From Curtanaerobium respiraculi (lineage in GTDB: Bacteria; Actinomycetota; Coriobacteriia; Coriobacteriales; Eggerthellaceae): 64,000 nt of DNA. The DNA lies in NCBI RefSeq assembly GCF_024609215.1, contig NZ_JANIPD030000001.1, positions 372,001 to 436,000 of the forward strand, read 5' to 3'. The notes under the pieces were generated by a model, which saw nothing but the letters and a program-made list of their open reading frames with translations, was not told the DNA's origin and made no database searches. The translations under genes and the position numbers were made by a program. Of this stretch, positions 14,399-45,701 are shown in pieces (the stretch's first letter is position 1; every line of letters starts with the position of its first letter).

Positions 14399-14444
14399 GA
14401 CAAAGGTGCCGTGTCGGATGACAAAAGTCTACGGTACCTTTGTC
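14399..14444. terminator. Hairpin between convergent metA and modD
   Basis: A 14-bp stem with one mismatch, GACAAAGGTGCCGT against ACGGTACCTTTGTC, loop of 18 bases. The right arm overlaps the last codons and stop of modD. Only weak T-rich sequence follows on the minus side, so it may act as a 3-prime end stabiliser or weak bidirectional terminator. Confidence 0.5.
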
Positions 14445-17768: not shown

Positions 17769-17881
17769 TATAAATTAGATATGATTTGGGTTCCCCGTTC
17801 CCATGATGTCCGCCGGAAAATCGGTAGGCCGGTCTTCCGGCGGCGCGGCTGCATCGTCGCCTCCCCAGGCCGCGATACGGC

Positions 17882-44335: not shown

Positions 44336-44435
44336 GCGTGACGGCCAACCGTATTGGTTGTCACATAACGTGAGGAGATGCGGATGGGGTTATCTCAAGC
44401 TGTTATGTGACAACCAATACGGTTGGCCGTCACGC
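44336..44435. repeat. Long inverted-repeat element, copy 1
   Basis: Perfect 34-base arms (44336-44369 and 44402-44435) around a 32-base loop. The arm begins GTGACGGCCAACCGTATTGG and ends TTGTCACATAAC. It ends four bases before the stop codon of the minus-strand toxin gene and lies after the HAD gene stop. Copy 2 is at 45177-45273. Neither arm is followed by a T run, so it is not a classical terminator. Confidence 0.9.
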
Positions 44436-44439
44436 CACA

Positions 44440-44724
44440 TTACATGTTCGGCAGGTTGCCGTAGACGCCCTGCCGATGGCCTACGCGAACGACCTTGATT
44501 TCCAGCACATTGTCCAATATCCTCCCGAGTATCCGATACGAACCGACGCGCCAACGCCAGCCGCTTTCCGTACCCTGAAGCCGCTTGCCCCCGTGCACAT
44601 TCCTTGGATTCTCGCAGCCGGAAAGGTTCTCGTTGATCCACGAGAGGATCATCAATCGCTGCTTCTTGGGAATCTTCTTCAGATCCTTCACCGCAGCCCC
44701 GGAGAACTCTACCGCGTAGCTCAA
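44440..44724 (-). CDS. RelE/ParE-family toxin
   Basis: A 94-residue basic protein beginning MSYAVEFSGAAVKDLKKIPK, with WRWRVGSYRILGRI and VRVGHRQGVY near the C-terminus, the usual RelE-superfamily outline (basic residues and an Arg on the central sheet). Members either cleave mRNA at the ribosome or poison gyrase; this copy is not assigned. Its start overlaps the antitoxin stop by four bases. Confidence 0.85.
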   Translation of the reverse strand: MSYAVEFSGAAVKDLKKIPKKQRLMILSWINENLSGCENPRNVHGGKRLQGTESGWRWRVGSYRILGRILDNVLEIKVVRVGHRQGVYGNLPNM

Positions 44725-44942
44725 TCGGACATCACGGCCATGCGCATAACCTCGTCCATCGTGTACGTCGCGCCGTCATCCTCCGCTATGGCCTCTTCGT
44801 ACGCCTGCAAATCGGCCGCTTCTTCGATGCGCTCCAAAACGGACTCGCGTACGACTTCGGAAAAGCTCTTTCCGACGAAATCGGCGTAGGATTGGATCCA
44901 ATCGCGCTCTTCCGGAGCGAACCGGATCGCCGTCGCATTCAT
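44721..44942 (-). CDS. RelB-type antitoxin (DUF6290-like)
   Basis: A 73-residue protein beginning MNATAIRFAPEERDWIQSYA, a ribbon-helix-helix start, with FSEVVRESVLERIEEA and an acidic C-terminus that would wrap the toxin. ATG 44942 is chosen because similar antitoxins start T/N-ATAIRF and GGAGGAG lies nine bases upstream; an ATG six bases earlier is possible. Encoded first, as typical for type II modules. Confidence 0.83.
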   Translation of the reverse strand: MNATAIRFAPEERDWIQSYADFVGKSFSEVVRESVLERIEEAADLQAYEEAIAEDDGATYTMDEVMRMAVMSD

Positions 44943-44965
44943 GGCCATCCACTCCTCCAATCAAC

Positions 44966-44982
44966 GTGCTACATCGTAGTAC
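44966..44982 (-). promoter_or_regulatory. Palindromic operator of the toxin-antitoxin operon
   Basis: GTGCTAC-ATC-GTAGTAC, six of seven arm positions symmetrical, lies 24 bases before the antitoxin start. Ribbon-helix-helix antitoxins bind such short palindromes to repress their own promoter. The gap 44943-45176 otherwise holds only a GCCGCCTG/CAGGCGGC hairpin (45134-45168). Confidence 0.5.
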
Positions 44983-45176
44983 TTTTCAAGATACCACGAT
45001 CTTCTTTTGTTGAAAATGGACATGCAGGAAACCAAAAGGAGATGTTTGATTCTCCCTGAGTAGAATCTATCGACTCCGAGAATGTTCGGGTACCCCGCAT
45101 ACCGGTTGGAGATGCATGCGCCATAAACAACATGCCGCCTGGAGAATCAGCGCATCCCCGCAGGCGGCCAAGGCGA

Positions 45177-45273
45177 GTGACGGCCAACCGTATTGTTTGT
45201 CACATAACTGACGGACGACCGTATAGGGTTGTCTCAAGCTTGTTATGTGACAAACAATACGGTTGGCCGTCAC
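45177..45273. repeat. Long inverted-repeat element, copy 2
   Basis: Perfect 32-base arms (45177-45208 and 45242-45273) around a 33-base loop. Arms match copy 1 at 31 of 32 positions; the one change (G to T on the left) is mirrored by C to A on the right, keeping the pairing perfect. It ends four bases before the perR stop codon. The loop shares GGGTT, TCTCAAGCT with copy 1, giving the element an orientation. Confidence 0.9.
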
Positions 45274-45277
45274 GAAC

Positions 45278-45676
45278 CTACCCCTCCTCTGCTTTCCGTT
45301 TCTGGCAGGCGGGACACACCCCCTCGAACAGGGTGGCATGCCCGGTCACGCGATAGCCCGACGCATCTTCCGCCAACGCATCCGCCTGCGCGTCGTAGGG
45401 GATGGGGACGTCGTCCACCGCCCCGCAAACGCTGCAGACGATATGCCCGTGCCCCTCGACGCGATGATCGTACCTGCAACCGTCGCCCGTCTTCACGACG
45501 AGGATGCTCCCATCCTCTGCGAGCAGGTTGAGGTTCCTATACACCGTGCCCATGCTGATCTTTTTGTCCTGCGCATGCACGCGTTCGTACACCTGCGCGG
45601 CCGTGGGATGGCAATCGAGCCCCCGGACGGCATCGAGGACGATTTGACGTTGCCGGGTGCTCCTCCGTTTGACCAT
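45278..45676 (-). CDS. perR: Peroxide-responsive Fur-family repressor PerR
   Basis: A 132-residue Fur-family protein beginning MVKRRSTRQRQIVLDAV. The DNA-binding helix is HPTAAQVYERV. The regulatory metal ligands of PerR are present: His of CHPTAAQ, then YDHRVEGHGH and the Asp in GAVDD, the residue that is Asp in PerR and Glu in Fur. Structural zinc is held by CSVC and CPAC. ATG 45676 follows GGAGGA at seven bases. Divergent from ahpC, which it likely represses. Confidence 0.87.
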   Translation of the reverse strand: MVKRRSTRQRQIVLDAVRGLDCHPTAAQVYERVHAQDKKISMGTVYRNLNLLAEDGSILVVKTGDGCRYDHRVEGHGHIVCSVCGAVDDVPIPYDAQADALAEDASGYRVTGHATLFEGVCPACQKRKAEEG

Positions 45677-45701
45677 TCCAAATTCCTCCATAATTTTTCT
45701 C

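Follow-up and report, generated by a model that had tools for sequence, protein, structure and literature searches.

The locus described here raises the question of what two long palindromes are doing on either side of a toxin-antitoxin module. Both lie in the window (the whole stretch of DNA analyzed, 64,000 nucleotides long), and they are its only inverted repeats of 25 nt or more (14-base seed, arms within 300 bases). The initial annotation had described perfect arms of 34 and 32 nt, a single compensated difference between the copies, an end four bases from the stop codon of a minus-strand gene, and the lack of a T run, all of which is borne out. The copies read TTGG versus TTGT at position 20 of the repeat unit contained in the arms, with the matching base in the partner arm; the neighboring stop codons are those of the toxin gene (44440-44442) and of a PerR-like gene (45278-45280); and no T run is found in the sequence 3' of either copy. 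The answer favored here is that the palindromes are very likely non-autonomous, REPIN-like mobile elements, moved most likely by a Y1 transposase encoded in the same genome (transposase 1, Table 1).

Table 1. Coordinates of the palindromes, their parts and the associated genes. Positions are those of the window unless a genome and contig are given (G000, the genome containing the window).
Feature	Position	Strand	Remarks
Inverted pair 1	44336..44435	.	long REPIN-like element, type ATAAC..GTTAT; perfect 34-nt arms, 32-nt center
Arms of inverted pair 1	44336-44369 / 44402-44435		34 nt, 100% complementary
27-nt unit GTGACGGCCAACCGTATTGGTTGTCAC in inverted pair 1	44338..44364	+	
Second 27-nt unit of inverted pair 1	44407..44433	-	same sequence as partner unit
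42-nt spacer of inverted pair 1	44365..44406	.	
Inverted pair 2	45177..45273	.	same long type (ATAAC..GTTAT); perfect 32-nt arms, 33-nt center
Arms of inverted pair 2	45177-45208 / 45242-45273		32 nt, perfect
27-nt unit GTGACGGCCAACCGTATTGTTTGTCAC in inverted pair 2	45177..45203	+	
Second 27-nt unit of inverted pair 2	45247..45273	-	same sequence as partner unit
ParE-type toxin gene (probable bystander)	44440..44724	-	PF05016, E 1.7e-10
Antitoxin gene DUF6290 (probable bystander)	44721..44948	-	PF19807, E 3.2e-17; start from rough gene call
FUR-family regulator, PerR-like (probable bystander)	45278..45691	-	PF01475, E 2.5e-20; start from rough gene call
Transposase 1, Y1 (HUH-type) tyrosine transposase	G000:C1:85663-86418		framed by two units
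Transposase 2	G000:C12:16950-17711		repeats at C12:16927-16953 and 17837-17863
Second-class unit in the window	14418..14444	+	3 mismatches; class flanking transposase 2 on contig C12

The gene pair between the palindromes had been labeled RelE/RelB, a name that Pfam does not support, as it assigns the toxin to ParE_toxin and its partner to DUF6290. The genes next to the FUR-family regulator are presumably ahpC-like and ahpF-like, and a HAD hydrolase gene is also found among the palindrome neighbors.

Searching the genome with the first 20 bases of the arm, at up to three mismatches, gives 38 matches, and the reversed control gives none. The arm contains a 27-nt unit (GTGACRGSCAACCGTATTGKTTGTCAC) that begins with GTGAC, continues with the core RGSCAACCG, as read from the column table, and with TATTGKTT, and ends with GTCAC; related units exist with variation in the TATTGK part. 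A degenerate pattern of this unit finds 63 copies in the own genome at up to two mismatches, and its reversed form none. Pairs, arms, spacers, loci and column tables are based on a set of 64 units, taken at up to four mismatches from 22 stretches around earlier matches. On rough gene calls, made with a codon-usage model trained on 31 window ORFs, 61 of the 64 are extragenic, the called genes taking up 91% of the window. The repeats occupy 31 loci, which are clustered: 13 neighbor gaps are shorter than 10 kb against 3.2 expected (maximum 11 in 5,000 simulations), among them that of the window pair and that of the two units around transposase 1.

A single unit is itself a hairpin in the main variants, with an 11-bp stem in two main forms and weak folds in the TAGGCT and CATGCT types. 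This stem is incompletely kept, pairs 8-11 being mismatched in 16-26 of the 64 units. The sequence before the unit carries no constant tag, its last two bases being diverse (the commonest, GC, in 13 of 64), and AT directly follows the unit in 39 of 64. The unit pattern was found in none of 137 other genomes of the taxonomic family, nor in any of 59 other relatives reaching into the order, which include one congeneric genome and overlap the set of 137. An exact-match scan of a species-genome collection, from which the own species is possibly left out, gave no match either, and an Rfam scan of the window lists one tRNA only. In the literature, no report of such repeats in Coriobacteria was found among the matches listed, and the main text of two REP surveys (PMC3733652, PMC6006769) makes no mention of Actinobacteria or Eggerthella. 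This is an untagged repeat family with a candidate transposase, so far found in one genome.

The units are arranged in a fixed way. All 18 inverted neighbor pairs are tail-to-tail and none is head-to-head, and a further 14 neighbor pairs are direct. Spacers of the inverted pairs measure 10 nt in six cases, 40-45 nt in another six, and other lengths in the last six. The same or related spacers are found at unrelated places, which is the pattern that dispersal of whole elements would leave. The spacer GCGATTCCGT is part of one 64-bp element present with different flanks at C10:41350, C2:90408 and C7:6592. The arms of this element have changed in both halves together, reading AGGC in one copy and AGCC in two, one of the latter with an extra change in a single arm. 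Similarly, the ATTAA..TTAAT type is found at C1:92091, at 93921 and, with the spacer reversed, at 101107, and the ATAAC..GTTAT type is shared by both window copies and C1:202836. In this last copy, whose spacer is related to that of inverted pair 1, a decayed third unit can still be read in the middle of the long type, at 5 mismatches.

The compensated difference had been put down to selection on a hairpin or to conversion from arm to arm. As a pattern this extends to the whole family: the arms are identical in 13 of the 18 inverted pairs (shuffled partners: mean 1.16, maximum 7 in 20,000) and unequal in five, and the mean arm difference is 0.78 against 3.70 for shuffled partners. The change seen in the window thus reflects a family-wide rule, which either of the two causes could produce. 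Since some variants have not retained the stem within the unit, the match at the level of the pair is the stronger signal. Identical arms are also found in five of seven inverted pairs of the repeat in a relative, G024 (units within 3 mismatches of one seed), where 0.1% of shuffles are as low in mean difference, and in one of three in another, G026, as read by eye from the list. Compensatory changes between REPIN arms are already on record and have been called common (PMC3116915). A compensatory change in a dispersed palindrome need not, then, imply selection on RNA.

The matching of arms can reach beyond the unit. Perfect pairing extends 10 nt past it at C2:90408 and 13 nt at C2:271636, and at C2:176309-176400 the match takes in even a 14-nt half-unit next to each arm. 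Compensating point changes would hardly produce such a matched half-unit, which is in keeping with templated copying or nested insertion. The half-unit itself may have arisen by slippage or by nested insertion. As a separate observation, this 14-nt half (GTGACRGSCAACCG) directly precedes 17 of the 64 units at a distance of 0-6 nt, as it does at C2:176309-176400.

Could the palindromes instead act in RNA, as 3'-end hairpins retained because they stabilize, process or terminate the messages of the toxin and PerR-like genes? Both are found four bases past a stop codon, and their folds are far more stable than those of shuffled sequences, as DNA (z -12.4 to -15.3) and, for either strand, as RNA (-64 to -75 kcal/mol). 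The lack of a T run speaks against such a role, and a terminator scan, which models loops of 3-8 only, lists no terminator at the palindromes. The four-base distance, moreover, is no family trait: distances from unit to nearest called gene vary widely. At the 30 scored of the 31 loci the flanking genes are unidirectional in 16 cases, convergent in 7 and divergent in 7, against 20, 6 and 6 for the gaps of the window. Because these orientations resemble the background, what the loci have in common is not a 3'-end function, and the divergent gaps contain no 3' end at all. Given also the absence of the repeat from the 137 family genomes, a role in RNA seems quite unlikely.

Another possibility is that the two similar palindromes together make up a composite mobile unit with the toxin-antitoxin genes as its cargo, or mark the boundaries of the module. 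Of the three members of the long-spacer type, two flank the module at a distance of about 740 bp from each other and the third is 213 kb away, and the module genes are found beside PerR homologues at none of 29 loci of relatives (flanks of up to 1.5 kb). However, repeat loci cluster generally, the window pair being one of the 13 close gaps; one of the seven ParE-type genes of the genome is found at such repeats; and a second copy of the composite is not seen. We regard this reading as very unlikely. An earlier proposal that the palindromes insulate the module is not supported, in view of the 31 loci, the one ParE-type gene in seven placed at them and the background-like orientations of flanking genes. 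With loci that cluster generally and one ParE-type gene in seven at repeats, the bracketing needs no special cause; the toxin-antitoxin genes are probably incidental, enclosed by chance, and the palindromes can be accounted for without them.

The REPIN-like reading draws its candidate enzyme from the genome itself, which holds two Y1_Tnp frames without stops. Both proteins match Y1_Tnp, and match the NCBIfam model REP_Tyr_transpos below its cut-off. Transposase 1, whose ATG is taken to be codon 20 of the listed frame, is framed by two units, 50 bp before the ATG and 19 bp after the stop codon, in the inverted orientation seen in REPINs. These two units differ from each other, each sequence occurring once among the 64, and share a perfect inverted repeat of only 9 nt, no more than shuffles do. 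The HUH and tyrosine motifs are retained, and NHVHLL and YIHxNP, which we take to be the catalytic motifs, are invariant in an alignment of 10 proteins. A profile of these 10 matches the solved TnpArep structure 4er8 (E 3.7e-4); transposase 1 alone gives no match at all by phmmer against the PDB. The homologues have in common a C-terminal extension (around SIRQIERLTGIGR) with sub-threshold matches to HTH_7 (E 0.042) and MarR_2 (E 0.044). There is no second close copy of transposase 1, as the genome yields two matches in all, the other being transposase 2 at 42% identity. Proximity alone makes transposase 1 the most likely partner of the repeat class.

In the proposed mechanism, an element would consist of two 27-nt hairpin units, with GTGAC..GTCAC ends and a CAACCG core, placed tail-to-tail around a short spacer. 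Since the gene of transposase 1 lies between two inverted units, a REPIN can be seen as this arrangement with the gene exchanged for a short spacer. The transposase would bind the hairpin of the unit in single-stranded DNA, cut at the paired ends, and paste the element into other intergenic gaps. The arms may stay identical while pairs diverge because one arm serves as template for the other when the hairpin is folded (template switching), because mobilization requires pairing, or for both reasons. The initial suggestion of a mobile palindromic family, MITE or REP-like, holds as to the family, with its many extragenic copies, fixed pair architecture and framed transposase; its mobility is what we infer.

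It has also to be considered whether the repeats are relics that owe their spread entirely to recombination and replication slippage, no transposase being involved, and their arm identity to template switching only. The half-unit duplications before 17 of the 64 units would agree with this, and template switching has been reported to homogenize the arms of inverted repeats (PMC8604942) and to create compensatory changes (PMC8794818). Yet the recurrence of one spacer at unrelated sites, the framed transposase and the coupled repeats in relatives are not readily explained in this way, and such an origin appears extremely unlikely.

Coupled repeats are indeed found in some relatives. Homologues of transposase 1 are present in 25 of 60 genomes, the own included, and a species-genome scan by protein alignment found at least 502 relatives, of which the best 80 were kept, in Coriobacteriia, Clostridia and others. 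The best-scoring named homologue among the matches listed is from Gordonibacter, and the literature search found nothing joining REPIN with this genus. Homologue loci were 38 hand-picked from the best 80 plus 27 of 30 (three being too short), which makes the following fractions indicative; after removal of duplicates (L085 = L149, L086 = L150), 63 distinct loci were left. Inverted flanking repeats of at least 12 bp are found at 48 of them (single-shuffle control 0). Among these 48, the ends pair over at least 5 bp in 37 (12% in base shuffles) and over at least 6 bp in 31 (2.8%), the best stem not always lying at the repeat's own ends (as in L083). Stem sequences vary from locus to locus and enclose a core that is often GGGGAC-like, and loci with such changing stems offer a ready series of substrates for studying hairpin recognition by these transposases. 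No flanking repeat is seen at the homologues of the congeneric genome G001 and of several other relatives. One 1.4-Mb relative, G009, has ten transposase matches, the most of the 60 genomes.

Each of the repeat populations followed further is private to the genome of its own transposase. G024 has 32 copies, G035 has 73 and transposase 2 of G000 has 14 (the same 8 genomes searched), and G026 has 13 (another 8 genomes). Head-to-head pairs occur in neither G000 nor G024; G035 has four, with one tail-to-tail pair, and most of its neighboring copies are in direct orientation, spaced at a 49-bp period (24 of the 27 direct neighbor pairs, e.g., C107:10959-11132). These direct arrays and head-to-head pairs indicate that the pair architecture is not universal.

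Among known systems, REPINs or BIMEs with their RAYT (TnpAREP) are similar in their short extragenic hairpin units, in a transposase framed by such units, in inverted doublets that are the likely replicating entity, and in compensatory changes between arms (PMC3116915). The hairpin unit, the many mostly extragenic copies, the inverted doublets with fixed spacing and the flanked Y1 gene, its match to REP_Tyr_transpos being below cut-off, are all found here. Unlike REPs, this family lacks the GTAG (or CGTC) tag at the hairpin foot, and its copies number tens, against hundreds or more in model genomes (PMC8266576). TIRtrons with their TIRYT (PMC3733652) and TnpA-Y1 subclass 2.1 (PMC6006769) share a Y1 transposase with a C-terminal extension between inverted repeats, an arrangement also seen here, though the units share only 9 nt perfectly. 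Such inverted repeats may reach moderate family sizes, with dimers and clusters (PMC3733652, PMC6006769). For the C-terminal helix-turn-helix domain of this group, the proteins here show the sub-threshold matches to HTH_7 and MarR_2 given above. Their GGGGWSAS motif, present in the majority of cases but not all, is absent from the unit, which has CAACCG as core instead; a GGGGAC-like core is found in many of the relatives' repeats. The unit also differs in its self-complementary ends, although the 2013 paper describes self-complementary tracts in some TIRs (PMC3733652). In the 2018 paper, REP-like sequences were not found in the vicinity of subclass 2.1 genes (PMC6006769).

The best reading is therefore a REPIN/TIRtron-like population, close to TIRtrons, without GTAG tag or GGGGWSAS motif, and with a framed Y1 transposase. 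MITEs of the IS200/IS605 type are short elements derived from a transposase-bearing one, whose end structure they keep. The repeats described here resemble them in sharing that end structure, but transposase 1 has no second close copy, and the units occur in inverted doublets and clusters. More tentatively, and with some doubt on our side, the repeats of this transposase clade (Coriobacteriia, Clostridia) could form a REP superfamily of their own. In it, the stem would be free to change between genomes, the loop core would vary less (CAACCG in this genome, GGGGACRG-like in many others), each transposase would have its private population, and the arms of doublets, including the 14-nt half-unit duplications, would evolve in concert by hairpin-templated copying.

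The repeat class of transposase 2 (GTGACAAAAGTCTACGGCCCCTTTGTC), with 14 copies at up to 3 mismatches, is kindred to the first class. Half of its unit (CCGTAGACTTTTGTCAC) resembles the first-class unit at C1:145997, and in the window (14399-14444) further similar sequence is seen just before the second-class unit.
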